Shown here: piece by piece, positions 1-31,892 of the stretch
Position numbering within the stretch: position 1 is the stretch's first letter
Layout of the letters: every line of letters begins with the position of its first letter
IMG/VR virus record: IMGVR_UViG_3300046683_000089
Location: 1-31,892 of that record
Reading direction: 5' to 3' (one strand)
DNA: 31,892 nt
From: a virus
The notes under the pieces: model-generated
What the model was told of the DNA's origin: nothing
The model's input: the letters and a program-made list of their open reading frames with translations, nothing else
Database searches by the model: none
Made by a program: the position numbers and the translations under genes

Positions 1-127
1 ATCAACGAACAGATCACGAGTTTCGAGACCAGCCGCGCCGGCAAGCACGCGCGGATGACGGCGATGATGACCAAGTCGGCCGACGCCGGCGCGACGCTCG
101 ACCAGGCCGAGACGGACGAATACGACG
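1..127. repeat. 127-bp exact terminal repeat, left copy
   Basis: Bases 1-127 are identical to 31766-31892. The repeat lies inside one open reading frame and keeps its phase, so it reads as the overlap of a circular assembly rather than a biological terminal repeat. A length of exactly 127 matches a k-mer size commonly used by de Bruijn graph assemblers. Confidence 0.95.
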
Positions 128-1338
128 GCTTGACCGCTGAACTCAAAGCCATCGACGCGCATCTCGTACGCCTCAAGGCCCTCGAGGCGACGGCTGTGAT
201 GACGAAGGCGACGCCGATCACGGCGGCGACGCCGGAACAAGCCAGTCTTCAGCGCAGCGGCGTGCCGATCATCTCGGTCAAGGCCAACGTCGCGCCGGGC
301 ACCGCGTTCATCCGCTACTGCCAGGCGCTCGCGGTCTCGCGCGGGTCGACGATGCAGGCCGTCGAGTATGCGAAACGCTGGACCGATTCGACGCCGGAAG
401 TCGAACTCGTCCTCAAGGCCGCCGTCGCGGCCGGGACGACGACTGATGCGAGTTGGGCCGGTCCACTCGCCCCGATGAAACCGCTGACCGACGAGTTCCT
501 CGCGCTGCTGCGCCCCGCGACGATTCTCGGCAAGGTGCCCGGGTTCGTACGCGTGCCGTTCAACGTGTCGGTCGCCAGTCAGACCGGCGGCGGCACGTAT
601 CAGTGGGTCGGCCAGGGCGCGCCCAAGCCGGTGGGCAAACTGGCGTTCGCGACCATCACGCTCGGGGTCACCAAGTGCGCCGGGATCATCGTGATCACCG
701 AGGAGCTCGCGCGCACCTCGACGCCGTCGGCCGAGGAGGTCATCCGGCGCGACATGGTGGCCGGGATCGCCGCCTACCTCGATCAGCAATTCATCGACCC
801 GGCGGTGGCCGCGGTCGCGGGCGTCGCGCCCGGCTCGGTGACCAACGGCGTCACCCCCATTACCACGGCTGGCGCCACGCCGGCCAACGCGCGGACCGAC
901 GTCGCGGCGATGGCGAACGCCATGACCGCGCTGAATATCTCGACGGCCGGCGCCGTGCTCGTGCTGTCGGAGACCAACGCGCTCGCGTTCACCAACGCGC
1001 TGAACCCGCTCGGCCAGCCGTTGTTCCCGGCGATGTCGCAGCAGGGCGGGACCATCATGGGCTACCAGGCGATCACCTCGCAGGTCGCCGGCACAACGGT
1101 CGCGTTGATTCAGCCCAACCAGGTGCTCTATGCCGATGACGGCGGGGTGACGATCGACGTCAGCCGTGAAGCGTCGGTGCAGATGGATACGGCGCTCGAC
1201 AACCCGCCGATCGCGACGACGGTGTTGACCTCGCTCTGGCAGAACAACCTCGTCGGGCTCCGCGCGGAACGCTTTATCAATTGGAAAAAAGCGCGCACGG
1301 GGTGCGTCCAGTACACCGTCGCGACCTACTCGGCGTAG
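1..1338 (+). CDS. Major capsid part of a prohead protease-capsid fusion (C-terminal portion, cut by window start)
   Basis: This is the HK97-fold major capsid region, open from base 1 without a start codon because the gene begins at 31208 at the other end of the circle. Bases 1-127 repeat 31766-31892 in the same frame, giving one 631-residue protein (186 codons before the junction, 445 after). The first ~70 residues here are charged and helical, like the delta/scaffold domain of HK97-type capsid proteins; the rest has the composition and Ala/Gly/Thr-rich C-terminal core of the family, with tail-proximal hydrophobic strands. An internal ATG at 31751 could give a separate capsid chain, but its ribosome site is weak. 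A start at base 55 is only an internal Met of the delta region. Capsid assignment rests on fusion to a clear protease and on the neighbouring portal. Confidence 0.88.
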   Translation: MNEQITSFETSRAGKHARMTAMMTKSADAGATLDQAETDEYDGLTAELKAIDAHLVRLKALEATAVMTKATPITAATPEQASLQRSGVPIISVKANVAPGTAFIRYCQALAVSRGSTMQAVEYAKRWTDSTPEVELVLKAAVAAGTTTDASWAGPLAPMKPLTDEFLALLRPATILGKVPGFVRVPFNVSVASQTGGGTYQWVGQGAPKPVGKLAFATITLGVTKCAGIIVITEELARTSTPSAEEVIRRDMVAGIAAYLDQQFIDPAVAAVAGVAPGSVTNGVTPITTAGATPANARTDVAAMANAMTALNISTAGAVLVLSETNALAFTNALNPLGQPLFPAMSQQGGTIMGYQAITSQVAGTTVALIQPNQVLYADDGGVTIDVSREASVQMDTALDNPPIATTVLTSLWQNNLVGLRAERFINWKKARTGCVQYTVATYSA

Positions 1339-1529: not shown

Positions 1530-1980
1530 CGCTCGCAACAAGACCGGTGACGCGCGCGCGGCCGGTGAGTCGATCGATATGACGGTGCGCACGTATCACA
1601 CCGAGAACGACCAGGCGCACGCGGAAGGCGAGACGTACGCGGTGACGGACCGCGCCTTGGCCGAAACGCTGCGCGCGATCGGGTTCGTGTCGATCGAGGG
1701 CTGGACGGACACCGGCGGCGGGGGCGCCGCGCCCGTCCTCACGACGCTGACCCCGGCGACCGGCGTTGTCGGTACGGCGGTCACGGTGCAAGTCGCGGGG
1801 ACCGGGTTCGTTGACGGCGATGCCGTCACCTGGAACGGCGCGGCCGTCCCGACCACGTTCGTGTCGGCGACCGAACTCTCGGCGGCGGTCGACGCCGCCG
1901 CCGTCGCGGTCCCGGGCGATGTGCCCGTGACGGTCGGCGCGAGCAACGCGCTGACGTTCGCGGTGACCGCGGCCCGGTAA
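1519..1980 (+). CDS. Head accessory protein with C-terminal IPT/TIG Ig-like domain
   Basis: A 153-residue protein. Residues ~20-62 (HTENDQAHAEGETYAVTDRA then LAETLRAIGF) look like the small phage head proteins in which an 'EGDTYE-vdd-LAEaLiaaGF' pattern recurs. After a Gly-rich hinge, residues ~74-150 form an IPT/TIG immunoglobulin-like domain: LTPATGVVGTAVTVQ, AGTGFVDGDAVTWNG, then FVSATELSAAV. Such Ig-like folds often decorate capsids or tails and can bind weakly to cell-surface carbohydrate. The stop TAA shares its last base with the portal start, indicating translational coupling. A capsid decoration role is inferred. Confidence 0.7.
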   Translation: MAGDARNKTGDARAAGESIDMTVRTYHTENDQAHAEGETYAVTDRALAETLRAIGFVSIEGWTDTGGGGAAPVLTTLTPATGVVGTAVTVQVAGTGFVDGDAVTWNGAAVPTTFVSATELSAAVDAAAVAVPGDVPVTVGASNALTFAVTAAR

Positions 1981-3410
1981 TGGCGAGTATCCGGCTGCGC
2001 TTGTTCGGCCGCGGGCTCGAGCTGACGGCGAAGGCGTTGACGGCGCCGTACAGTCCCGGCGCAGTCACCGGCGGCGGCTGGTATCCGCTCGTCGTCCGCG
2101 AACCGTACGCCGGGGCGTGGCAGGTCAACGTCGAAGGCCGCCGCGATCAGGTCCTGCAGTACGCGCCCGTGTTCGCGTGCGTCACGCTCATTGCCCAGGA
2201 CATCGGCAAACTCACGCTGCGCCTGGTCGAGGAGAACGACGACGACATGTGGGAGGAGACGAGCTCGCCCGCGTTCTCGCCGGTGCTGCGCAAACCGAAC
2301 CGTTACCAGACCACGACCAAATTCGTCGAGCAGTGGATCACGTCGAAACTAATGTGGGGCAACGCCTACATCCTGAAAGAGCGCGATGCGCGCGGCGTCG
2401 TGGTCGCGCTCTACGTGCTCGACCCGTTGCGCGTCACGCCGCTGGTCGCGCCCGATGGCGGCGTGTACTACCAACTGCAGCACGACAACCTGTCGGGCAG
2501 CCTGGCGCTCGCGCGCGAGCCCGCGGACCAGTTCATCCTGCCGGCGAGCGAGATCATCCACGACCGGATGGTGTGCTTGTTTCATCCGCTCGTGGGCATG
2601 TCGCCGATTTATGCGTGCGCGACCGCGGCGCTGCAAGGGCTCGCGATCCAGGCGACCTCGAGCGCGTTCTTTACCAATGGCAGTCGCCCGAGCGGGTTGA
2701 TCACGGCGCCGGCGGGGATGACCCCCGACCAGCTCGCCCAGGCCAAGACCGATTGGGAGACGTTCAACGGGCCCGGCAACGCCGGCCGCGTCGCCGTCAT
2801 CACGGCCGACATCAAGTACACGCAGCTCTCGATGAACGCGGTGGACGCGCAACTGATCCAGCAACTGGGCTGGACCGCCGGCACGATCTGCAGCGTGTTT
2901 CACGTGCCGTCGTTCCTGATTGGTGTCGGCGAGTTGCCGCGCGGCGTGTCGCTCGAGTCGCTGTGGCAGATGTATCACTCGCTCTGTCTGCAGTCGTTGA
3001 TCACGAACTTCGAGAACGCGCTCGACGAGGGCCTCGGCCTGACGCCCGCGACCAGCAGCACGCAGTACGGCACCGAGCTCGACATCGACGATTTGATTTG
3101 GATGGACACGGCGACCAAGACCAAGGCCGCGGCGGATGCGATCGGCGCCGGGGCCATGTCGCCCGACGAAGCGCGCGAGCGGTACTACGGTCTCGGGCCC
3201 GTCGAGGGCGGCGACACGCCGTACATGCAGCAGCAGATGTTCTCGCTCAAGGCGCTCGCGCAGCGCGATGCGAGTGATCCGTTTAGCAAACCGGCACCGG
3301 CGCCGATGGCCGCGCCGCCGTCCACGCCGGCGGCGGACCAGGTGCCGAAGGATCAGGTCGCCGCCAACGTGCGGCATCTGCTCACCAAGGCGCTGGACGT
3401 GGCCGCATGA
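1980..3410 (+). CDS. Portal protein (HK97-like phage portal family)
   Basis: A 476-residue portal subunit, within the usual length range (~400-500). It would form the dodecameric ring at the capsid vertex through which DNA is packaged and ejected. Family features seen: VNVEGRRDQVLQYAPVFACV near residue 45 (the 'v.pvfaCv.lia..ia.lp' region), SKLMWGNAYILKERD (the 'l..GNay' motif), SGLITAPAGMTPDQLAQAK, and FHVPSFLIGVGELP in the 'f.VPp.llG' region. The C-terminus is Pro/Ala-rich. The portal follows the capsid instead of preceding it, so the head genes are permuted compared with the common order terminase-portal-protease-capsid. Confidence 0.93.
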   Translation: MASIRLRLFGRGLELTAKALTAPYSPGAVTGGGWYPLVVREPYAGAWQVNVEGRRDQVLQYAPVFACVTLIAQDIGKLTLRLVEENDDDMWEETSSPAFSPVLRKPNRYQTTTKFVEQWITSKLMWGNAYILKERDARGVVVALYVLDPLRVTPLVAPDGGVYYQLQHDNLSGSLALAREPADQFILPASEIIHDRMVCLFHPLVGMSPIYACATAALQGLAIQATSSAFFTNGSRPSGLITAPAGMTPDQLAQAKTDWETFNGPGNAGRVAVITADIKYTQLSMNAVDAQLIQQLGWTAGTICSVFHVPSFLIGVGELPRGVSLESLWQMYHSLCLQSLITNFENALDEGLGLTPATSSTQYGTELDIDDLIWMDTATKTKAAADAIGAGAMSPDEARERYYGLGPVEGGDTPYMQQQMFSLKALAQRDASDPFSKPAPAPMAAPPSTPAADQVPKDQVAANVRHLLTKALDVAA

Positions 3411-17001: not shown

Positions 17002-17276
17002 CACGCCGAGGGAATGTGCTGGCCTTGACTGAGCGGCGGGACCAGGTCGCGACCGCCGCCGCCGCGGCGTTCGATGACGTGCGGCTGACCGTGGCCGAAG
17101 CGGCGACCGAAGCCAAAGTCAGCGAACATACGATCCGCCGCGCCTATGTGCATGGCCATTTGCACATTCAGCGGTTCGGCATCGGTCAACGATCGTTGCG
17201 CATCAAGCGGAGCGATCTCCTGCAATGGCTCGAGGCCGGTGGCAACACCGCGCCGCGCGCCGGAAAGTCTCGATGA
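16998..17276 (+). CDS. Excisionase-like helix-turn-helix protein
   Basis: A 92-residue protein, ATGA-coupled to the Cro-like gene. Residues ~30-78 match the HTH_17/MerR-type excisionase domain: LTVAEAATEAKVSEHTIRRA, YVHGHLHIQRFGIGQRSLRI, KRSDLLQWLEA. This DNA-binding wing arrangement is usual for Xis/RDF proteins. Its stop overlaps the integrase start, which supports a role in directing integrase toward excision. Confidence 0.78.
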   Translation: MTRRGNVLALTERRDQVATAAAAAFDDVRLTVAEAATEAKVSEHTIRRAYVHGHLHIQRFGIGQRSLRIKRSDLLQWLEAGGNTAPRAGKSR

Positions 17277-18520
17277 GCGTCCGGAAGAAGTGCGGCTGTC
17301 AGTACGCGGATCATCGCTGCGCGCATGCCTGGCTCAGTGAGGTCATGCACGCGGGCGTGCGACGGCGCATCAATATCGATCAATACGCGATCGAGCGGGG
17401 CGCGCGGGAGGCGCACATTGTCGCCAAGCGCGACGCGCTCCAATGGGAGGCGCGGATCAAAATGGACCTGGCGCAGGGACTGGACCCGACGCACCCGCCC
17501 GGCGTGGTGGCAGAATCGGTGGAGAGCATCGCGCGCGCCTTAGAGGATTACGAGGCGGTCGAAGTGCCGAAGCTGCGGGTCCAGGGGCCGCCGCGCAGTG
17601 AGATCCGGACGATCCGCGCGTACTTCGGCGGCCGGGCGCTCCGCGAGCTCGAGCGCGAAGGCGCTGGCCTGGCGTTCATGTCGGCGCTGCGGGAGGGGTG
17701 GCGCCCGCCGCATCCGCGCACCGGGGAGGCGCAGGAACCCCTCGAGGACGGGCGCGGCCCGGCCGGCGTGAATCGCATCATGCAACGCCTGCGGCACTTC
17801 ATCAACTGGTGCCGCTATCAGCAGCCGCAGCGGTTGACGCGGACGCCGTTTCATCGCTACGGGATTCAGATCAAGTTGAGCGAGGAAGTGCAACGGACGC
17901 GGCGCCTGCACGCGGGCGAGGAGGCGGCGCTGCTGGCGGCCTGCGAGGCGATCAACACCCTGGATCACAAGTACGCGGGGCCGGCCATCAAACGACGCAT
18001 TCTCGGCACACTCTGGCTCGGCGCGCGTGGCAGCGAGCTCGATCGTGTCCAGATCGCCGACGTCAACTTCCGCACGTGGGATGTCCTATTGCGCAAGGGC
18101 AAGAGTGCGCCGCGGGCGGTGTGGCTCGACGACCGGAGTCCGTTGCGGGCGCTCCTCGAGCAGCGACGGTTTCTGAAGCCGGGCCAGGCGGTCTTCGGCG
18201 ACGAGGCGGGCGCGGTCTACAACGCGCGCGCGGCCTGGGAAACGGTGCTGCTCCTGGCCCACGACAAGATCACCGTCGCCGGCACGGGCCGGACCTCCGA
18301 CCAGGACGCGATCCACTTCGCCGAGATCGATCTGCACTTTCACGATCTGCGGCGGGAGTGTGCGTCGCGGTGGTGGGAACAGAAGATCGACCTCCTCAAG
18401 ATTTCGCGCTGGTTGGGCCACGCGGATTTTCAGATGACGCAACGCTATCTGCACCTGACCGCCGAGGCCTTCGGCGGCCGGGACATGGAGGAGGCGCTCA
18501 CGGGGAAACGGCGGCTGTGA
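17273..18520 (+). CDS. int: Tyrosine recombinase, phage integrase
   Basis: A 415-residue protein. ATG 17273 overlaps the Xis stop. The catalytic residues are visible: Arg252 in LGARGSELDRV, His357 and Arg360 in HDLRRECASRWW, His383 in WLGHADFQ, and nucleophile Tyr392 in QRYLHL. The N-terminal Cys/His cluster (RKKCGCQYADHRCAHAW) may bind metal or help arm binding; a core-binding domain spans residues ~85-200. The attP core lies about 110 bases after the stop, the usual placement. Mediates site-specific integration at a host tRNA gene. Confidence 0.93.
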   Translation: MSVRKKCGCQYADHRCAHAWLSEVMHAGVRRRINIDQYAIERGAREAHIVAKRDALQWEARIKMDLAQGLDPTHPPGVVAESVESIARALEDYEAVEVPKLRVQGPPRSEIRTIRAYFGGRALRELEREGAGLAFMSALREGWRPPHPRTGEAQEPLEDGRGPAGVNRIMQRLRHFINWCRYQQPQRLTRTPFHRYGIQIKLSEEVQRTRRLHAGEEAALLAACEAINTLDHKYAGPAIKRRILGTLWLGARGSELDRVQIADVNFRTWDVLLRKGKSAPRAVWLDDRSPLRALLEQRRFLKPGQAVFGDEAGAVYNARAAWETVLLLAHDKITVAGTGRTSDQDAIHFAEIDLHFHDLRRECASRWWEQKIDLLKISRWLGHADFQMTQRYLHLTAEAFGGRDMEEALTGKRRL

Positions 18521-18814
18521 TCCGGTTACGCCCAGATTGCGCCTTTTTTGCGCCTAGTTGCAGTTTCGAGGGGTCGCGTGGCGAGCGAGTGAAAGGCGGG
18601 AAGTGATGGCTGATATGGGGTTTATGGGTGGTGGCGAGGGACAGAATCGAACTGTCGACACTACGATTTTCAGTCGAGCAGAAGCCCTTTCCCAGGCTTG
18701 CCCTGAGTCGCCCTTAGGCACTTTTCCTCAGCAAATTTCCAAGACGGCCTCGCGGGGCTACGCGGGGCTAATCCCGGTTTCCGATCCGATTACGCCCACG
18801 ACTTTGAGGCCGCG
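18521..18814. other. Integration region around attP with candidate arm sites
   Basis: The 294-base gap after the integrase holds the tRNA-like core and repeats that look like integrase arm sites: TCCGGTTACGCCCA (18521-18534) recurs as TCCGATTACGCCCA (18785-18798), flanking the core by about 95 and 110 bases; and a perfect tandem CGCGGGGCTA pair lies at 18751-18770. No gene is evident. Confidence 0.65.
18629..18676 (-). other. attP: attP core: 3' half of a tRNA-Phe(GAA) gene
   Basis: On the minus strand this segment reads as the 3' half of a tRNA: anticodon loop CTGAAAA with anticodon GAA, stem TCGTA, variable loop, T-arm GACAG-TTCGATT-CTGTC, acceptor CCTCGCC and ACCA. The matching 5' half is absent (the 5' anticodon stem breaks after three pairs), so it is not a functional tRNA gene. 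Integrating here would rebuild the 3' end of a host tRNA-Phe. Confidence 0.85.
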
Positions 18815-23143: not shown

Positions 23144-23338
23144 ATGGCGCCCGTCTACGTGTATGTCTATCTGGAACACCCGACCGCAGGCCCCGACGCG
23201 TATTCGATCGCCGGGGTGCCGGGCCTCACGTACGCGGAAGCGCACGAACTCGCCGACGCGGCGAACGCGATCCTCGCGCGCCGCACAGGCACGCCCGACC
23301 CACACCGCATCGCCTTCACGATGCCGGAGGAAGGCTGA
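23144..23338 (+). CDS. Unknown small protein (64 aa)
   Basis: ATG 23144 follows GAGGAAGG by a good distance. Begins MAPVYVYVYLEHPTAGPDAY and has a helix LTYAEAHELADAANAILARR. It ends in MPEEG, like the EEG end of the previous gene, from a shared GAGGAAGGCTGA that also serves as the ribosome site of the following gene. Function unknown. Confidence 0.58.
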   Translation: MAPVYVYVYLEHPTAGPDAYSIAGVPGLTYAEAHELADAANAILARRTGTPDPHRIAFTMPEEG

Positions 23339-24915
23339 TGGACACCGCCCGTGAACTGTTACACGCCCTCGATCGCGTGCTCGCCGCGCAGGCGGTCGAT
23401 CCCACGCTCGCCGCGCTCACCGGCCACGTGCTCGGCGGGCTCATGGCAGCCAACCCCGACATGGACGAGACGATCGCGATCGACCAGGCGATCCGCATGG
23501 CGCGCGCGACCGTCGCGCAGCTCGCCGGCGCGCCGATCACGCCGCCGCCGGTGGTCGCCGGTCGCACCGTGCTCACGCCGGCGGATTTCACGTATCTCGG
23601 CGCCGCGACGCTCCCGCTCGACACGAACGGCCAGACGCGGTTCGGGTACTCGACCGGCGCGCTCTCCGGCCGTGTCGTCGACGGCGCGATTCACCTGTTC
23701 ATCACGGGCGCACAAGCCGAGACCGGCTGGATGGACCCCGTCTACGAGGTTGCGTGGCACGGCGCGGGCACGCGCTGCACATTCGTCACCAATTGGGGCG
23801 ACATCACGCTGGGGAAGCGCGTCTCGGCGGCCGGCAACGCCGTCCCGCTGCACGGTCTGCTGTGGGACCCCGTGACCGCGTCCCTGCTGTGGACCTACAT
23901 GGACAGCTACAACGTCGGCGGCGCGCACGACCCGTGCCTCGGCGCGTCGCAGCTCACTCCGGGCCACGTGATCGTCTCGGGCCCGTGGCGGCTGACCGAT
24001 CATTGCGCCCGCGTCGGCGGGTATCTCGTGGCCCTGCCGGAGGCGCTCGCGGCGCACCTGGGCGGCGCGCGCTTCGCGGCCGGCGCCCCGATTGGGTCGG
24101 GCAATGCGTCGTCGGCGTGGGGTGCGTTTTGCGCTGCGTTCACGCTGCCGGCCGCCGGCACGCCGGCCGATCCCCTCGCCGATCCGTCGGGCATCACGAT
24201 TCAATCGAAGCACCTGATTTACGCCGACTTCGATCACAAGCAAACGCGCGCCGGCGATGTGGACGACTGCGGGTGGACGCACTACGGCGAAGCGGACAGC
24301 CAGGGCGCGGAACCGCAATTCAACCCGGTGCAGGACGGCACGGGCTGCACCGTCAACGGCGAACTGTGCGGCGTTTCGTACGGCCCGATCAGCACGTTCA
24401 CGTCGATGGATGCGCTCTCGGCGGCGGCGTTCATCGGGGGCGCGCACAAGCACGGGCTCGTGTATGTCGGCCAACTGGCACGGACGATCGCCGCGCAGGC
24501 CGCCGCGTACGGGCCGCTCGGCCGCTGCCATGTGTGGTACGGCCCCGCGCAGGAATACGGCGTCAAGAAAATGTGCGCGCACGGGCAGAACGACACGCGC
24601 TACGCGCCCGAAGCGACCGGCCCGAGTTGCACCACCATGCAGTCGTCGCTGTTCATCTACGACCCGGCCGATCTCGCGTGGGCCGCGCAGGGCCTGTGTT
24701 CGCCGATCCTCCTGCCGCCGACCACCGACGCCGCGGACCTGAGCGCGATCGCGCACGCGGGCACGCCGTTTCCGCAACTCGTGTCCTACGGGTTCTGCAC
24801 GTTCGGCGGCGCGTGGTGGGAACCGGCCAGTCAGACGTTGTTCGTGTCGGAGTGTCACGCCGAATGGCAGGGCGAGTGGCGCCCGGTCGTGCACGCGTTC
24901 CAGGTGGCGTGCTGA
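23338..24915 (+). CDS. Large beta-propeller-like protein, unknown function (525 aa)
   Basis: By far the longest early gene. Residues ~1-70 are helical; from ~80 on the protein is beta-rich with aromatic and Cys-containing strand blocks: FRY-like RFGYSTGALSGRVVDGAIHL, AWHGAGTRCTFVTNWGDITL, LWDPVTASLLWTYMDSYN, SKHLIYADFDHKQTRAGDVD, and a final GGAWWEPASQTLFVSECHAE ... RPVVHAFQV. The last block resembles the closing blade of secreted bacterial propellers ('..yDp..rrLyv.e.......PvvHvf.v'). No signal peptide or catalytic motif seen. Coupled to small genes on both sides. Could be a cargo enzyme-like protein or carbohydrate binder; I do not recognise the family. Confidence 0.75.
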   Translation: MDTARELLHALDRVLAAQAVDPTLAALTGHVLGGLMAANPDMDETIAIDQAIRMARATVAQLAGAPITPPPVVAGRTVLTPADFTYLGAATLPLDTNGQTRFGYSTGALSGRVVDGAIHLFITGAQAETGWMDPVYEVAWHGAGTRCTFVTNWGDITLGKRVSAAGNAVPLHGLLWDPVTASLLWTYMDSYNVGGAHDPCLGASQLTPGHVIVSGPWRLTDHCARVGGYLVALPEALAAHLGGARFAAGAPIGSGNASSAWGAFCAAFTLPAAGTPADPLADPSGITIQSKHLIYADFDHKQTRAGDVDDCGWTHYGEADSQGAEPQFNPVQDGTGCTVNGELCGVSYGPISTFTSMDALSAAAFIGGAHKHGLVYVGQLARTIAAQAAAYGPLGRCHVWYGPAQEYGVKKMCAHGQNDTRYAPEATGPSCTTMQSSLFIYDPADLAWAAQGLCSPILLPPTTDAADLSAIAHAGTPFPQLVSYGFCTFGGAWWEPASQTLFVSECHAEWQGEWRPVVHAFQVAC

Positions 24916-25067
24916 TGGCGCGCGTCTCGATCCGGCTGCGACCCTGCGCGCAGTGCGGCCACCGGCGCGCGCTCACCCTCGTGCTCACGTGTCACCGGAA
25001 TGTCTACGCCTATCGCTGGCTCTGTGTGCGGTGTCGGTCCGGCCGCCGTGACGGAGCGCGCGCATGA
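24915..25067 (+). CDS. Zinc-ribbon mini-protein (50 aa)
   Basis: ATG overlaps the propeller-like gene's stop. RLRPCAQCGHRRALTLVLTC and RWLCVRCRSGRRDG give two Cys-x2-Cys pairs, a compact basic zinc ribbon. Likely nucleic acid or protein binding; function unknown. Confidence 0.62.
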   Translation: MARVSIRLRPCAQCGHRRALTLVLTCHRNVYAYRWLCVRCRSGRRDGARA

Positions 25068-25282
25068 CGCGGCGCCGGCCCGTGGTGCCCGACATCGTGC
25101 GCGACGAAACCGCCACGCTCGCGCCGGGCGACCCCGGATACTGGTTACTGCTGACCGACGACGAAGTCGAAGGCCTGGCGAGTGGTGTCTGTCCGCGCGC
25201 GATCAGTCTCAAGGCATACGAGATGCTTGAATGGAAACGCGAGGCCGCGCGACAGACGGCACGCGCACTCACGGAGGACTAG
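25064..25282 (+). CDS. Unknown small protein ending the early run (72 aa)
   Basis: ATG 25064 overlaps the previous stop. Contains GDPGYWLLLTDDEVEGLASG, then ISLKAYEMLEWKREAARQTA. No recognised domain. It is the last gene before the PEP-CTERM cargo gene, which has its own ribosome site. Confidence 0.58.
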   Translation: MTRRRPVVPDIVRDETATLAPGDPGYWLLLTDDEVEGLASGVCPRAISLKAYEMLEWKREAARQTARALTED

Positions 25283-25339
25283 CATGGTGACCACGCGCGC
25301 GGCTGTCCGTAACGCGAGTCAAAGAGAGTGGGAGTTGAT

Positions 25340-26008
25340 ATGAAACGAGTCTGGGCGAGTCTCCTTCTGGTCCTGAGTGTCTCCCTGCCCGCGTCCGCGG
25401 CCACGATTCTGCAGTTTACGGAGGTGTTGCCGTTCAATACACCGTTCGTGTTCACCGGCAACGGGACCACGACGACGCTGACGGCCTCCAAGGCGGTCGA
25501 TGTGTTCTTCGACCCGTCGTTCTGTCTGGTGGCCGGGTGTGGCGGCGCGACGAATGGGGTCTACGCGCTCGCGCTGAACGCCACCAGTATTGGTCCCGCG
25601 ACCCTCTCCGGTGGCGCGATCACCGAAGCGTTCGCGGGCACGCTCTCGATCACGAACGGGTCGATCGATCTGTTGACGGTGAATTTCACGGACCTGTTGC
25701 AGGGTAGTCTGAACGGGTCCAGCCCGACGCTGCAAGCCAGCCAGCCGCCCGACCTATTCAGTGGGACGTCGAACATCCTCGACCCGCTGAAGCTGGGGAT
25801 TCCTCGTGGGTTCGCGTTCAGCTTCTCCAACCTGACGAATGGCGGGTTGGGCCTGAATGGGACGTCGATTCGCAGCGGCGTCGCCGATGCGACGGGCACG
25901 TTCAGCGCCACGACGGTGCCCGAACCGGCGTCCATGACCTTGCTGGGAACCGGGTTACTCGGATTGGTCGCGTGGGCGCGGCGGAAACGCGAGCACGAGA
26001 TTCACTGA
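25340..26008 (+). CDS. Secreted PEP-CTERM sorting-domain protein
   Basis: A 222-residue protein; ATG 25340 is chosen because GGAG lies seven bases upstream (an in-frame GTG at 25328 is less likely). Signal peptide MKRVWASLLLVLSVSLPASA with an Ala-x-Ala cut site. The mature part is beta-rich (ILQFTEVLPFNTPFVFTGNG, GAITEAFAGTLSITNG). The C-terminus is a textbook PEP-CTERM signal: VPEPAS (~193-198), hydrophobic helix MTLLGTGLLGLVAWA, and basic cluster RRKR. In the host, exosortase would recognise PEP and process the protein at the envelope. The phage encodes no exosortase, so it depends on the host. Probable lysogenic-conversion or entry-modifying cargo (inference). Confidence 0.88.
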   Translation: MKRVWASLLLVLSVSLPASAATILQFTEVLPFNTPFVFTGNGTTTTLTASKAVDVFFDPSFCLVAGCGGATNGVYALALNATSIGPATLSGGAITEAFAGTLSITNGSIDLLTVNFTDLLQGSLNGSSPTLQASQPPDLFSGTSNILDPLKLGIPRGFAFSFSNLTNGGLGLNGTSIRSGVADATGTFSATTVPEPASMTLLGTGLLGLVAWARRKREHEIH

Positions 26009-26271
26009 CGTACCGAGCCGCCACGTTCGCCAAGTCAGTGATAGGGAGCATAGGTGGTGATCTCCTCCTGTGCTCCCGCCTCCAAGGTGGGTCGGAGGAC
26101 GGAGATTCTTCCACGGGACAGCTACGAGCGGAATCCGGCAGGGAAGTCCCGACCCGCCGCCGGCGGAAGTGGTGAGCGCGGTAATCGCGGCATGAGAACG
26201 CCAGGAGTCAGCAGCACCACAGATCAGGCGTGACAGGCCGGAGAGACGGTCACTAACTACGAAAGGCAGAT
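26009..26271 (+). ncRNA. Hairpin-rich non-coding stretch, candidate structured RNA
   Basis: About 260 bases without a credible gene. Perfect 8-bp inverted repeat TCACTGAC/GTCAGTGA (26002-26009, 26034-26041) straddles the upstream stop. It is followed by a long hairpin at 26044-26077 (7 perfect pairs GGGAGCA/TGCTCCC, then more pairs separated by two T-T mismatches and a wobble). Further stems: CCTCC/GGAGG, GGGAC/GTCCC, CGCG/CGCG around GTAAT. No U-tract, so not a simple terminator. Known RNA families were not recognised. Confidence 0.45.
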
Positions 26272-27150
26272 ATGGCCACCTTGAACGTCGCCGTCGTCGA
26301 CCAGGCCGGCGCGCCCGTCGCCGATCAACTCGTCACGATCAACACCTTCAACGCGCTCGATTACGCGCACCCCGGGATCGAGATCAATCCGAACCCGCGC
26401 CGCACCGGGCCCGATGGCCTGGTGAACTTCTACAGCGGCCCGCCGCTCGGTGGCGCCATCATGGTGCAGGCCACCGCGCAGAACGGCACGACCGAGCCCG
26501 TGCACTTCGACGGCACGAGTAACGTGCTCGTCACGGTCACGCTGATTCCGTTCACGACCGCTGCCGCGCCGCCCATCCCTGAACCCGGGCCCGAACCGCT
26601 ACCGCCGTCTGCGGGCGCCGACGCCATCGACCTCTCGGCGGCCATCGTCGCGTCGGGCGATTGTCCGCCGGTCGCGCACCTGCCGATCATCAGTGCCATG
26701 GCGTCGATCTCGCTCACGGAGGCCGACCAGGGGTTCGCGATGAACTTCCCGGGACGCGACACCTGGCCCGGTGTCATCCCGCCCGGCTGGGAGGGCGCGA
26801 TCAACCATACGCTGTGGATTGCCGAACGCATCGGCGGCCAGTGGTACGTGCTGCCCATCAAGGAAGGTTTGCACGATTACCTGACGCTCGGGCCGATCCT
26901 CAACCCGGGACAGATCCCGCAGAACCTCACGTACTTCGCCAGCGCACCGATGTACGGCTATCAACCCAAACCCCGCGAACAGGTCGGGTTCTTCGCGACG
27001 ACTGGGGATACGCGCCGCATGAACCTGCAACCGCCGATCGGCGCTGGTCGCACGAACGTCGTGCTCGTGCCGTTCACGGCCGGCGAGTACACGTTCCCGG
27101 CGAGTGGGACGCGCACGGTCGTGGTCGTCGCATCGACCGGACAGCCATGA
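26272..27150 (+). CDS. Unknown protein with N-terminal Ig-like/carboxypeptidase-regulatory-like domain (292 aa)
   Basis: ATG 26272 with AAAGG about nine bases upstream. Residues ~1-95 look like a carboxypeptidase-regulatory/transthyretin-like beta sandwich (LNVAVVDQAGAPVADQLVTI, TGPDGLVNFYSGPPLGG, VTVTLIPF). A Pro-rich hinge (PPIPEPGPEPLPPS) follows. The C-terminal half has FAMNFPGRDTWPGVIPPGWE, GGQWYVLPIKEGLHDYLTLG and YQPKPREQVGFFATTGD. It stands before the packaging genes. Could be a virion surface or host-wall protein; not recognised. Confidence 0.68.
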   Translation: MATLNVAVVDQAGAPVADQLVTINTFNALDYAHPGIEINPNPRRTGPDGLVNFYSGPPLGGAIMVQATAQNGTTEPVHFDGTSNVLVTVTLIPFTTAAAPPIPEPGPEPLPPSAGADAIDLSAAIVASGDCPPVAHLPIISAMASISLTEADQGFAMNFPGRDTWPGVIPPGWEGAINHTLWIAERIGGQWYVLPIKEGLHDYLTLGPILNPGQIPQNLTYFASAPMYGYQPKPREQVGFFATTGDTRRMNLQPPIGAGRTNVVLVPFTAGEYTFPASGTRTVVVVASTGQP

Positions 27151-27284
27151 CGACCGAAGGCCAGTTCCTCAACCCGCCGAAGTGCCGCACGTGCGGGCAC
27201 ACGATCTGCCCGACGGTGTGGGCGTGTTGCAATCCGCGTTGCCCTAAGAACGCCCCGAAGCCGAAGCGTAAGGTGAAGTCCTGA
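27147..27284 (+). CDS. Zinc-ribbon mini-protein (45 aa)
   Basis: ATG overlaps the previous stop. CRTCGHTICPTVWACCNPRC carries four to six cysteines in Cys-x2-Cys and Cys-C-x3-Cys pairs, followed by a Lys-rich tail (PKPKRKVKS). Its stop shares a base with the HNH start, so it may work with that nuclease. Confidence 0.62.
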   Translation: MTTEGQFLNPPKCRTCGHTICPTVWACCNPRCPKNAPKPKRKVKS

Positions 27285-27580
27285 TGCCGATGGCCCCGCC
27301 GCGCGCGTGCGCCACGTGTGGCCGGCCTGGCTGTACCGTGCACCATGGTGGAACACGCACGCAGCGCACGACGGGCCGACGTCTGCAGGCGTGGCGCTAC
27401 CAGCTCGCCAGGGCGCACCCGTTCTGCGTGCGCTGCCACGTCGAGGTCGCTACCGTGCGTGACCACGTGCTACCCCTGTGGGCTGGTGGACTGGACGTCG
27501 AGACCAACACGCAGGCGCTGTGCGTGGCGTGCCACGACGCCAAGACCAAGGCCGAGTCGCAATGGCGCTATCGCCGGTGA
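27284..27580 (+). CDS. HNH endonuclease next to terminase
   Basis: A 98-residue protein with an HNH fold: CATCGRPGC, zinc Cys pair CVRCHVEVATVRDHVLPLWA (catalytic Asp-His), GGLDVETNTQALCVACHDAK (the N and final H with the second Cys pair), as in phage packaging-associated HNH proteins such as HK97 gp74. These assist terminase in cutting DNA at cos or pac. Position directly before TerL fits. Confidence 0.88.
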   Translation: MPMAPPRACATCGRPGCTVHHGGTRTQRTTGRRLQAWRYQLARAHPFCVRCHVEVATVRDHVLPLWAGGLDVETNTQALCVACHDAKTKAESQWRYRR

Positions 27581-27735
27581 TGCATATGCACCGAGGCTAT
27601 ACATGCCCAAGTCGCCAAGTCCCTAAGTCGTTGATAGACCGCCACTACCGGGGGGTAGGTAATTGATACACCCAGGGGGAGTCGGGAAACCCTCCGGGCC
27701 GGACTTTGTCACGAACTAAACGTGTCTTTGCGAAA
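27581..27735. other. Non-coding gap before terminase, candidate packaging (cos/pac) site
   Basis: Starts with the 10-bp palindrome TGCATATGCA (27581-27590). Then three tandem 8-mers, CCAAGTCG CCAAGTCC CTAAGTCG (27607-27630), and a small stem CTACC-GGGG-GGTAG (27645-27658). Palindromes plus short tandem repeats beside HNH and TerL suit a cleavage or terminase-binding site, but nothing in the sequence fixes the cut. Confidence 0.4.
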
Positions 27736-29544
27736 ATGCGCCTAAAACGCCGCAAGATTGGACGGCCGCGGGTGTCGGATGCCGAGAAGGCGAAGCGGGG
27801 CTATTTGCACCCGGGTCGCCGGCGGTCTCGGCGGCGGTCGCCAGGGCGTCAACAACCGGTCCTGGCGGGGTCAGGACGCGATTACGTGGCGGTCGCGCGC
27901 GAGTACGTGGCCGATGTCCTCAGCGGCCGGCAGACGGCCTGCCAGTGGGTGCGGCGGGCCTGTGAGCGCCACGACCGCGACACGGTGCGTGCGGCGACCG
28001 ATCCGGTCTGGCCGTTCACCTGGTCGGATGCCCACGCGGTCGAGGCGTGCGCCTTTATTGAGCAGCTACCGCACGTCGAGGGCCGGTGGCGCACTGAGAC
28101 GATTCACCTCGAGGCGTGCCAGGTGTTTTTCGTGTGTGCACTGTTCGGGTGGCGCCAGCGCGCCAACCTCATGCAGCGGCGCTTTACGCTCGTATATTTC
28201 GAGGTCGGGCGCAAGGCGGCCAAGTCGACGCTGATGGCGGCGATCGCGCTCTTCCACTTGCTGAAGGAGCAGGAAGTCGGCGCCTCGGTCGTCTGTGGCG
28301 CGACGACGGGCAGCCAAGCGCGGATCGTGTTCGTGATCGCCGCCAAGATGGTGCAACGGTCACCCTTGCTCCGGCAGCTCGGCGCGCGGGCCTTCACCAA
28401 CGCCATCATCACGGCGGACGGATCGATCAAGCCCGTCAATGCCAAGGCGTCGACTCAGGACGGGCTGAACCCGAGCTGCATCGTGCTCGACGAGTCGCAC
28501 GCGCAAAAATTTGGCTTGCACGACGTGCTCAAGAGCGCGCAGGGCGCGCGCGCGAACCCGCTGATGCTCTGCCCGACGACGGCCGGGTATGACCTGCTCT
28601 CGGTCGGCTACGCGTTGCGGACGACGCTGACCAAGGTGCTGCAGCAGGTGTTCGAGGCGGATCACTTCCTCGGGATCATTTACACGCTCGACGACGCCGA
28701 CGACTGGCGCGACGCGCGCGTCTGGGTCAAGGCCAACCCGATGCTCGGCGTGACGCCGACGCTCGAGTGGGTGACGTCCTACTGCCACGACGCGCAGCAG
28801 ACGCCCGGGCTCGAGGGGGAGTTCCGCGTCAAGATCTGCTCGCAATGGTTGCAGTCGGCGCGGACCTGGCTGTCGATGACGGACTGGGACGCGTGCGCCG
28901 AGCCGTCGTTGCGCCTCGAGGCCTTCGCCGGCGCCAAGTGCTGGATGGGCGTCGACCTGGCGCGCCGCGAGGATATTGCGGCGGTCGCGTTGCTCTTCGA
29001 GCGCGCGGACGTGCTCTATGCGTTTGTGAAGTTCTATCTGCCGCGGGACGTCGTCGCGTCGCGGGCGCGCACGGTGCCGGAGTATCTCGCCTGGGCGAAG
29101 AGCGGGATTCTCGAGCTGACCGACGGCGATTTCATCGACCAGCGGCGGATCGAGCAGGACATCCGCGACTGGTGCCGGGTGTTTCAGGTCGCGGCGGTGC
29201 GCTTCGATCAGTGGGATTCGCCGATTATGGTCTCGAACCTCCATGACGCCGGCATCCCGGCGGCCATCCTCACGAAGGACCGCAAGAGTCTGACCGCGCC
29301 GGCGCGCGAGCTCGAGGCACGGCTGCGACGGCGCCGGTTTCGGCACGACGGCAACTCGTGTCTCAAATGGATGGCGAGCAACACCGTGGTCACGCGCGGC
29401 CAGGACGACAGCTTGTGGCCGCGGAAAGAGCACGAAGACTCGCCGAACAAGATCGACGGCATCGACGCGATCCTGCAGGGATTGGCGCCGCTGGTGACAC
29501 CGGGCGCGGCGCCGCCGAGCTATTCGATGGTTGTATTCGGTTAA
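27736..29544 (+). CDS. terL: Terminase large subunit (ATPase and nuclease)
   Basis: A 602-residue protein from ATG 27736 (an in-frame TTG at 27706 would add ten residues; neither has a good ribosome site). Walker A is EVGRKAAKST (156-165), the deviant form of this family, and Walker B IVLDESH (Asp252, Glu253). Nuclease-domain acids: Asp407 in MGVDLARRED, Asp491 in VRFDQWDSP, Asp574/577 in KIDGIDAIL. Family-typical opening RDYVAVAREYVADVLSG is preceded by ~45 extra basic residues with a GRPR motif. Packages phage DNA into proheads through the portal. No small subunit was recognised. Confidence 0.93.
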   Translation: MRLKRRKIGRPRVSDAEKAKRGYLHPGRRRSRRRSPGRQQPVLAGSGRDYVAVAREYVADVLSGRQTACQWVRRACERHDRDTVRAATDPVWPFTWSDAHAVEACAFIEQLPHVEGRWRTETIHLEACQVFFVCALFGWRQRANLMQRRFTLVYFEVGRKAAKSTLMAAIALFHLLKEQEVGASVVCGATTGSQARIVFVIAAKMVQRSPLLRQLGARAFTNAIITADGSIKPVNAKASTQDGLNPSCIVLDESHAQKFGLHDVLKSAQGARANPLMLCPTTAGYDLLSVGYALRTTLTKVLQQVFEADHFLGIIYTLDDADDWRDARVWVKANPMLGVTPTLEWVTSYCHDAQQTPGLEGEFRVKICSQWLQSARTWLSMTDWDACAEPSLRLEAFAGAKCWMGVDLARREDIAAVALLFERADVLYAFVKFYLPRDVVASRARTVPEYLAWAKSGILELTDGDFIDQRRIEQDIRDWCRVFQVAAVRFDQWDSPIMVSNLHDAGIPAAILTKDRKSLTAPARELEARLRRRRFRHDGNSCLKWMASNTVVTRGQDDSLWPRKEHEDSPNKIDGIDAILQGLAPLVTPGAAPPSYSMVVFG

Positions 29545-29561
29545 CCAACAAAGGAGGGCAG

Positions 29562-30293
29562 ATGGCTAGGGCGAAGGAGACACCCCAAGACACCTCGACG
29601 ACGAAAACACGGGCCTTACCACCGTTATGGACGCACTACCGCGTGACGTGGACCTTTCTCACGCGCCTCTGTGCATCGGTGCCGGCCGATCCCGACATGA
29701 TCCGCAAATGGATCGAGACCCGGGAACCGCGTGTCAAGCCGGCGGGCGCGCTGTCGATCGAAGAGATCAACGAGGAAGTGCTCGCGAGCATCGAACGCGG
29801 CGAAGGCGAACCGGATCAGAGTTACTCCATGCTCGTGTTTCAACGGCACGCGGGTGGGCTCGTCGAGCGGTACGGCACGGTCAAAGCCCACGCGAAGGAC
29901 TGCGCGCGGATCTTGTCGTCGCAGTACATCGGGAAAATTGAAGGCGAGAAAGCCTTCAGCTCGCGCATTACCAACGGCCTGTACCCCGATGCGGCGCAGT
30001 ACTGGATTCCGATCTGCCGCGAGAACGGCGACCCGGTGCGCCAGGCGGACGGGGCCTTCGACAAGGCGATTCACGTCTACGTGCACGGCCGCGGGCAGAT
30101 GAACGCCTTGAAGCGGTTCGAGTACATCGAGCCGCCTTCGCAGATGACGTTCACCGTGAAAGTGCTGGGCCGGTCCGTGTCGGAAACCGATTTACATCAC
30201 TTGTTTGAGTATGGAGGGGTGCATGGCTACGCAGGCGAAAGAGGCGACGGCGAAGGGCGCTACAGCTACACCATTGAACGAGTCGAAGCTTAG
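29562..30293 (+). CDS. Unknown conserved-looking phage protein (243 aa)
   Basis: ATG 29562 follows AAAGGAGG, one of the best ribosome sites in the window; the frame upstream is a shadow of TerL. Segments: YRVTWTFLTRLCASVPADPD, MIRKWIETREPRVKPAGALS, EEINEEVLASIERGEGEPDQ, and an end FEYGGVHGYAGERGDGEGRY. No enzyme motif recognised. Lies between terminase and the repeat array, so packaging or capsid roles are possible. Confidence 0.75.
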   Translation: MARAKETPQDTSTTKTRALPPLWTHYRVTWTFLTRLCASVPADPDMIRKWIETREPRVKPAGALSIEEINEEVLASIERGEGEPDQSYSMLVFQRHAGGLVERYGTVKAHAKDCARILSSQYIGKIEGEKAFSSRITNGLYPDAAQYWIPICRENGDPVRQADGAFDKAIHVYVHGRGQMNALKRFEYIEPPSQMTFTVKVLGRSVSETDLHHLFEYGGVHGYAGERGDGEGRYSYTIERVEA

Positions 30294-30591
30294 ACCGAAC
30301 GCGCCCAAAGTGCGGACGGCGACGGCCATCGTCGAGAAGCATGAACAGATCCTCGATGCGCTCGAGCGCGAGACGATCACCGGAAAAATTGCGGAGCAGA
30401 TGGGCCAGCAGCTCAAGGGGATCACGGGGATAGCCAGGTTGGAGATGCAGTTCTGGAACACCGTGATCAAGTTCGGGCGCAAGGCGCCCGTCCCGCGGTC
30501 GGCGCTGATGCGGAGCGTACTCGGCTTGCCGGAAGCGATCTCGCCGACCGATGGTGAGGCGGTGCGGTCGATGTTGCCCGACGCGAGGTGA
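30223..30591 (+). CDS. Unknown protein before the repeat array (122 aa)
   Basis: ATG 30223 with GGAGGGG upstream is preferred over the in-frame start at 30205. Overlaps the upstream gene by 71 bases. Alternating Ala/Thr/Lys N-terminus, then helices TATAIVEKHEQILDALERET and IARLEMQFWNTVIKFGRKAP. The TGA stop is the first three bases of the first repeat box. A small-terminase role is conceivable from position, but no HTH is visible. Confidence 0.65.
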   Translation: MATQAKEATAKGATATPLNESKLRPNAPKVRTATAIVEKHEQILDALERETITGKIAEQMGQQLKGITGIARLEMQFWNTVIKFGRKAPVPRSALMRSVLGLPEAISPTDGEAVRSMLPDAR

Positions 30592-30962
30592 CGCCGAGCA
30601 CTGCAGTGTAGTGTCCTGGCTTGTCCTGCGCTGTGGTGGTGTGTCGTGAAGTGCCGTCGAGTTGTGCCGTGATGTGCCTTGTCGTGCGATGCCGTGCCCT
30701 GAGCTGAAGTGACGTGAAATGACGCCGAGTGGTGAGCTGTCGTGCAGTGAGCTGGCGTGGCTGTGAAGTGGCCTGGCGTGACGTCGAGGTTTGTCGTGTT
30801 CCGATTTGTGGTGGTGTGTCGTGTCGTGTTCTGACGTCGAGGTGTGATCTGGGCTGGTCTGACGGGGCCGTGTTGTGGTGTGACGTGACGTCGAGCAGTG
30901 GTGTGGCGTGTCGTGGTGTGGTCGGATGTGCCGTGGGGTGGCGTGACGTCGAGACCTGACAG
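30589..30962 (+). repeat. Pentamer array: six units of (TGNNN)n bounded by seven TGACGTCGAG-like boxes
   Basis: Boxes start at 30589 (TGACGCCGAG), 30652 (TGCCGTCGAG), 30720 (TGACGCCGAG), 30779, 30832, 30886 and 30944 (all TGACGTCGAG); spacings 63, 68, 59, 53, 54, 58. After each box come three free bases, then a run of pentamers nearly all beginning TG (mostly GTGNN phase), 8-11 per unit. The few exceptions are CGATT, GGATG and one-base slips in units 3 and 5. The pattern is strongly G/T-rich on the plus strand and not a multiple of three, so it is non-coding; the long minus-strand readings across it are open only because CNNCA repeats rarely form stops. Confidence 0.9.
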
Positions 30963-30968
30963 GTGCCG

Positions 30969-31151
30969 ATGAACAAACCTCCAGACGATCCGCCGGGGAA
31001 ACGGGGGCGCCCGCGCGTGGCGGAAGCGGGCTCCTCCGTTTCGACGTGGGTGAAACAGAGCGAGCATGATGCCCTGATTCGCCTTGCGGAACAACGCGAG
31101 ACGACCGTGTCCTCGCTCGTCCGCCAGTTGTTAAAACTGCGTATCCCTTAA
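30969..31151 (+). CDS. Ribbon-helix-helix DNA-binding protein with AT-hook-like motif
   Basis: A 60-residue protein from ATG 30969 (GTG 30963 also in frame). KRGRPRV (~11-17) is an AT-hook-like core. Residues ~23-58 form a ribbon-helix-helix: strand SSVSTWVKQSEHDALIRLAE, then QRETTVSSLVRQLLKLRI, as in CopG/Arc-type proteins, which dimerise and bind repeated operators through the strand pair. It begins directly after the seventh repeat box, so the array is its natural candidate target (inference). Confidence 0.82.
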   Translation: MNKPPDDPPGKRGRPRVAEAGSSVSTWVKQSEHDALIRLAEQRETTVSSLVRQLLKLRIP

Positions 31152-31207: not shown

Positions 31208-31892
31208 ATGCTGAACCGCGCGTACGCCGTGCTCGAAGTTCGGTCGGTGAACGACACGACCCGGGTGATCGGCGGCATTGCATCGACGCCCGAACCCGAT
31301 CGCATGGGCGACGTGGTCGAACCGGCCGGTATTTCATTCCTGAATCCAGTGCCGCTGTTGCTCCATCACAACATGGAGAAACCGGTCGGGACCGTCACGT
31401 TCCAGCCCCCGACGGCCGATGGCCTGGTCTTCGAGGCCACGCTCCCGACCATCAACGAGCCTGGCGCCGTGCGCGATCGCGTCGAGGAAGCCTGGCAGAG
31501 CATCAAGGCCGGCCTCTTCGCGGGCGTCTCGATCGGGTTCCTGTCTCGCGAAAAAGCGTTTAACAAAGCGACCAACGGGTTCCGCTTTCTCAAAACCGAA
31601 ATTTACGAACTGTCGCTGGTCACCGTGCCGGCCAACGGCCGCACAACGATCGCGATGATCAAATCGCTCGACCTGGCCGCGCCTGGCCGTCATCCGTCCC
31701 GCGACAGGGACACGCTCCCAATTGTGCGCGTCGACAAGGACGCGCGCCCCATGGAACAGAAAACCATCAACGAACAGATCACGAGTTTCGAGACCAGCCG
31801 CGCCGGCAAGCACGCGCGGATGACGGCGATGATGACCAAGTCGGCCGACGCCGGCGCGACGCTCGACCAGGCCGAGACGGACGAATACGACG
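31208..31892 (+). CDS. HK97-family prohead protease, N-terminal part of protease-capsid fusion (continues at base 1)
   Basis: Peptidase U35/S78-type maturation protease that would trim capsid delta domains and itself during prohead maturation. The start ATG at 31208 gives MLNRAYAVLEVRSVNDTTRV. The catalytic His lies in LLLHHNMEKPVG (His54 most likely) and the nucleophile Ser in GVSIGF (Ser108), both in family-typical context. The frame has no stop up to the window end and, through the 127-base repeat, runs into the capsid at base 128. A Pro/Arg/Asp-rich linker (about residues 160-181) separates the two parts and is a likely cleavage zone. Protease-capsid fusions are known in some phages but are less common than separate genes. 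A small stem-loop (31177-31202) lies just upstream. Confidence 0.9.
   Translation, partial: MLNRAYAVLEVRSVNDTTRVIGGIASTPEPDRMGDVVEPAGISFLNPVPLLLHHNMEKPVGTVTFQPPTADGLVFEATLPTINEPGAVRDRVEEAWQSIKAGLFAGVSIGFLSREKAFNKATNGFRFLKTEIYELSLVTVPANGRTTIAMIKSLDLAAPGRHPSRDRDTLPIVRVDKDARPMEQKTINEQITSFETSRAGKHARMTAMMTKSADAGATLDQAETDEYD
31766..31892. repeat. 127-bp exact terminal repeat, right copy
   Basis: Right-hand copy of bases 1-127. Removing it leaves a circle of 31,765 bp and restores the intact protease-capsid gene. Confidence 0.95.

Follow-up and report, generated by a model that had tools for sequence, protein, structure and literature searches.

Proteins sorted by the PEP-CTERM/exosortase system of Gram-negative bacteria (PF07589, TIGR02595, PF09721), a large system for surface sorting of which few functions have been tested, carry a signal peptide, a PEP motif, a helix and a basic tail, in that order. 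The phage protein described here has the same parts in the same order, but differs from the described system in that its gene is on a phage that lacks exosortase and its mature domain falls outside the curated PEP-CTERM families. Temperate phages are known to alter the surface of their hosts by means of lipoproteins and glycosyltransferases, and the phage morons for lysogenic conversion or superinfection exclusion include envelope lipoproteins such as Cor and Llp. Like the Cor/Llp-type morons, the gene is optional and single and is situated between conserved genes, and its predicted product is aimed at the host envelope; unlike them, it encodes an exosortase sorting signal instead of a lipobox, and a scan restricted to sigma-70-like promoters found none before the gene in the window. 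We found no description of phage-encoded PEP-CTERM proteins in the openly licensed literature at the level of titles and the starts of abstracts, which is no proof of novelty.

The described family that scored best among the NCBIfam models was the flocculation-associated PepA (NF033554). However, the whole window protein reached 38.1 bits, far under the cut-off of 80 (a relative in record L088 reached 48.9 bits), and its mature domain alone had no match, so we rejected membership of this family. Since the likeness vanishes on removal of the C-terminal signal, it comes mainly from that signal. The mature domain also matches neither XDD4 (NF045504) nor cistern (NF033947), to which the second PEP-CTERM genes of some related phages belong (see below). 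Overexpression of PepA in Aquincola is reported to lower soluble and raise bound exopolysaccharide and to restore flocs (PMC9850573).

The window, by which we mean the whole stretch of 31,892 bases that was analysed, is a soil phage record with a 127-bp direct terminal repeat (1-127 identical to 31766-31892), based on which the record of ~31.8 kb is probably a whole phage genome. In addition to the features in Table 1, it encodes a tape measure protein and a tail fibre. A tRNA-Phe-like sequence (18629-18702, minus strand) lies directly past the integrase gene and is likely the attachment site in a host tRNA-Phe gene.

Table 1. Positions of the PEP-CTERM gene, its parts and its neighbors in the window.
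Feature	Position	Strand	Details
Major head protein	55..1338	+	phrog_617 E 1.4e-76
Portal protein	1980..3410	+	PF04860 E 2.3e-79
Integrase (temperate lifestyle)	17225..18520	+	PF00589 E 1.1e-11; phrog_1 E 5.1e-30
Upstream flanking gene	25064..25282	+	72 aa; homologue kept in sister phage L014
Accessory block (PEP-CTERM gene and flanking non-coding DNA)	25283..26271	+	missing in L014
PEP-CTERM gene P0001	25340..26008	+	222 aa; ATG start
Predicted Sec signal peptide	25340..25399	+	residues 1-20: MKR, hydrophobic stretch, ASA/A; from sequence and hydropathy
Mature domain	25400..25915	+	residues 21-192; predicted beta-rich barrel-like fold
PEP-CTERM sorting signal	25916..25990	+	VPEPAS 193-198, hydrophobic helix 199-213, RRKR 214-217
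Downstream flanking gene	26272..27150	+	292 aa; homologue kept in L014
Terminase large subunit	27706..29544	+	PF20441, PF03354, phrog_9 E 1.4e-130; 1.7 kb downstream of the PEP-CTERM gene

The sequence-only reading had proposed a signal peptide followed by VPEPAS, a hydrophobic helix and RRKR, and had named a PEP-CTERM profile search as the check. Both the order and the domain scores confirmed this proposal: the protein scored 33.5 bits with PF07589 (hmmscan; cut-off 20.7) and 20.2 bits with TIGR02595 (cut-off 16). Searched in all six frames with PF07589, the whole record gave 35.6 bits (E 4.8e-10) across 25913-25984, and the same search of 14 control genomes gave no matches. The signal (residues 193-217 of 222) is at the extreme C-terminus, with five residues beyond RRKR. 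A loose rule (PEP, a hydrophobic stretch and a basic tail) picked out one of the 200 window ORFs of at least 60 aa, namely this gene, and 2 of 25,361 ORFs in 100 codon-shuffled windows. The signal peptide was called by eye and hydropathy, and its cleavage site is conserved as ASA/S in the relatives; an in-frame GTG 12 bases 5' of the ATG is a possible alternative start. Judged from its sequence, by domain cut-offs and signal order, the window protein is a genuine PEP-CTERM protein.

The mature domain matched no family in Pfam, NCBIfam or PHROG, and the window protein had no PHROG similarity at E 0.1 and no match in the PDB by sequence. An earlier model of the window protein was poor (pLDDT 53), and a model of the mature protein (m854970abe2db; mean pLDDT 81.3) predicted a beta-rich barrel-like domain followed by a C-terminal helix. 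Foldseek comparison of the model with the PDB and BFVD gave no match at E 0.001, and the best VIA match, to PloI4 (Z 9.3), was followed by OmpW and by dirigent/allene oxide cyclase barrels, none clearly above unrelated barrels. As these matches are weak and scattered among barrels with no relation to one another, the predicted fold does not indicate a function.

That the gene belongs to the phage and that the phage lacks exosortase had both been claimed from the letters alone, and both claims hold. Exosortase (PF09721) was found in none of eight records, including the apparently complete window, and in none of seven more, the search having taken in 14 of the 17 family records (the window, L002-L006, L011 and L084-L090). 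Since the phage is without exosortase, sorting of the window protein must depend on the host. The first claim can also be extended, in that the gene is accessory cargo that recurs in unrelated phages. Its accessory nature is apparent from L014, the closest other long relative, whose terminase is 89% identical and whose DNA is 73-87% identical in the larger shared blocks. In L014 the homologues of the upstream and downstream flanking genes sit side by side with nothing between them, the next gene starting at L014:598. As these homologues adjoin, the block at 25283-26271 is either an insertion in the window or a loss in L014, and it has the arrangement by which morons are recognized, in which a gene is present where a close relative has the two neighbors directly adjoining.

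The window terminase has 43 relatives among viral contigs, many of them short fragments, such that the absence of a PEP-CTERM gene weighs most for the longer ones. PF07589 was detected in only one of the 43, L002, a second record of the window's own virus. Absence in relatives suggests that the gene may be dispensable for lytic growth.

When viral contigs were scanned, using the protein and alignments as queries, relatives of the window protein turned up in 16 further IMG/VR records (L002-L006, L011, L084-L090, L181, L183, and L184), with identities of about 34-100%. The 17 family records represent at least four kinds of phage: an HK97-type temperate kind (window, L003, and L011), a group of 117-120 kb contigs (L006 and L084-L087), the L088-L090 group, and L183/L184, with L004 standing apart. 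Phage genes were identified in L011 (terminase, head, and portal), L003 (integrase, HNH, and small terminase), L088 (terminase, head-tail adaptor, and major head protein), L183 and L184 (terminase), L006 and L087 (a UvsX-like recombinase and a weak terminase match), L085 (a weak terminase match) and L004 (tail fibre and helicase); the phage nature of L181 is taken from its IMG/VR classification alone. PF07589 scored above its cut-off in every member that reaches the C-terminus, that is, in all 17 except the L005 relative, which is cut by the contig end. The L181 relative has no recognizable signal peptide, which counts against uniform export.

Eleven pairs of family genes had dN/dS values of 0.11-0.35, the distant pairs having high pS (about 0.6), and 20 alignment columns are invariant in ten relatives. 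Based on these comparisons, the family is held under purifying selection in several unrelated phages. In L003 and L005, which share 92-95% DNA identity in these blocks, the PEP-CTERM gene is on opposite sides of the same small neighbor, and some 33 bases from the end of the preceding gene are repeated at the PEP-CTERM gene; this repeat is, as read from the two sequences, the footprint of a local move. A small lipoprotein gene with a lipobox (by eye) is a second envelope-type gene in five of the PEP-CTERM phages (L003:3122-3571, L005:3201-3764, L011:6131-6541, L183:6445-6834, and L184:5685-6095). It occurs in one other record, L049, and was not found in the window; two tested members of its family had no PHROG match. 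Near the PEP-CTERM genes there are also large proteins (window 23338-24915, L004:4370-6445, and L006:14808-15917) that have no Pfam match and, by eye, a repeat-rich, surface-binding look.

Seven of the 14 family records scanned whole had two PEP-CTERM matches, the genes being adjacent in six (L084 and L086-L090) and 6 kb apart in L006. The second gene of L006 belongs to XDD4 (124.9 bits, cut-off 40) and those of L084 and L086 to cistern (111.5 and 117.7 bits, respectively, cut-off 60). For the second genes of L088 and L090 no family besides the sorting domain was above cut-off, and by eye these two partner proteins are unlike each other. The second gene of L084 is missing at the same place in L085. 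In a further phage, L094, the corresponding region before the terminase encodes a single PEP-CTERM protein of an unrelated kind (L094:4032-4823); the terminases of L094 and L088 share 88% identity. Of 339 records found for the L088 terminase group, 80 were retained and 50 examined; PF07589 was present in four of the 50, and two of these four have identical proteins.

The position of the gene is similar in many of these phages, as a terminase gene lies at most 5 kb downstream on the same strand in 13 of the 17 family records (window, L002, L003 [small subunit], L006, L011, L084, L085, L087-L090, L183, and L184); among the other four, the L005 and L181 contigs end, L086 lay outside this check, and L004 has none in the stretch examined. 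The start of the PEP-CTERM gene in L011 shares bases with the upstream stop (ATGA), and the starts in L003 and L005 are ~20 nt past an upstream stop, implying that in these three the gene belongs to phage transcription units. The window gene is in the main strand run near the terminase, away from the integrase and repressor, which would also fit lytic-cycle expression. One terminator-like site, at chance level, lies inside the window gene, and no sigma-54 site met the search rule in 11 upstream regions of family genes. Upstream of the gene in L006 there is, by eye, a TTGACA-type promoter within a near-perfect inverted repeat (L006:7841-8000), which suggests that this gene has a regulated promoter of its own.

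The mature domain was to be sought in other phages and in bacteria, and it was found in the former, in the 16 IMG/VR records, while the bacterial genomes scanned yielded none. A scan of 84,980 species with two short patterns from five sequences, which distant relatives would escape, returned 67 stretches and no relatives. Profile searches found none, among the candidates listed per genome, in 398 Pseudomonadota genomes, 399 genomes of the order of a Herbaspirillum MAG or 384 Omnitrophota genomes, a total of 1,181 that partly overlap (the first two sets share some genomes); the phyla beyond these samples were covered only by the pattern scan. In a sensitivity control the profile (A5) recovered five of five outside relatives at E 4e-17 to 2e-52, plus one of its own members, thereby reaching phage relatives outside it at 34-52% identity. 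It found nothing in the presumed negatives L094 and L014 and gave one weak second match in the L086 record (E 5.8e-4). The window protein had no tblastn match in INPHARED or PLSDB, nor did its C-tail or the XDD4 partner in INPHARED.

The expectation that the protein points to the host group was not supported. Among bacterial genomes, the terminases closest to that of the window share only 36-47% identity with it, too little to assign a host, and exosortase was above cut-off in 7 of the 19 genomes that carry them, distributed over proteobacterial and Omnitrophota records.

We favor, with a probability of roughly 60%, the interpretation that a temperate phage carries the window gene as a moron-type accessory gene, the product of which changes the surface of infected or lysogenic cells. 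Several other explanations were weighed against this. A bulk phage protein might occupy the host exosortase as a decoy, stripping the host surface of its own PEP-CTERM proteins or exopolysaccharide and so aiding dispersal or the adsorption of progeny. This would suit the fact that, of all features, only the sorting signal is present in every one of the phage proteins, the second genes having mature domains that vary from phage to phage. A pure decoy would have no need, however, of a mature domain that is kept by purifying selection and has 20 invariant columns in ten relatives, and we think this explanation unlikely. Similarly doubtful is a role in lysis or egress in the envelope late in infection: the predicted membrane targeting and the nearby terminase in 13 of 17 records are in its favor, but the gene is missing in close relatives that must also lyse (the single PF07589 match among the 43 being the window's own virus), and the protein has no PHROG similarity.

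The bacterial origin of PEP-CTERM proteins otherwise, and the placement of partner genes in the bacterial families XDD4 and cistern, would be expected if the gene were a recently transduced host gene of no use to the phage. This is decidedly improbable given its recurrence in unrelated phages, the purifying selection and the lack of a mature-domain relative in the bacterial genomes examined. Proximity to structural genes, and in L004 a position after the tail-fibre region, might instead indicate a protein displayed on or packed in the virion; we consider this very improbable, as a signal peptide and membrane anchor are wrong for a structural protein of a tailed phage, which is assembled in the cytoplasm. 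Finally, that the locus is an assembly chimera or a mis-binned bacterial contig is scarcely credible, and nothing was found in its favor: L002 covers 25584-31049 at 99.98% over 5,466 bases, the window has a terminal repeat and phage hallmark genes on both sides, and relatives occur in 15 other records, some with terminase, portal and head genes alongside.

If the gene is indeed a surface-modifying moron, its product would be exported by Sec during infection or lysogeny and processed by the host exosortase at the PEP-CTERM signal, after which the mature beta-rich domain may settle in the outer membrane or the exopolysaccharide layer and alter the surface of the infected cell. By analogy with what PepA does for flocs, the likeliest benefit would be that the cell is shielded from further phages and/or that exopolysaccharide is retained (aggregation). 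Exopolysaccharide retention or surface masking would be the likeliest use based on the effect of PepA in Aquincola (PMC9850573). The effects suggested from the letters alone, namely altered receptor access, exclusion of rival phages and changed biofilm traits, may be among the consequences. A broader proposal, to which we give about even odds, is that unrelated phages hijack host exosortase sorting by means of interchangeable one- or two-gene PEP-CTERM cassettes, composed of a phage-specific member and a variable partner, and thereby rebuild the infected-cell surface. If true, such cassettes would make up a class of phage genes for surface modification that the literature searched does not describe. 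If phages repeatedly carry exosortase substrates, then this sorting system bears on phage infection, and the phage products are small, testable substrates for it. Exosortase sorting would, if our interpretation is correct, add a route by which temperate phages alter the surfaces of their hosts, one of relevance to bacterial aggregation in soil and sludge.
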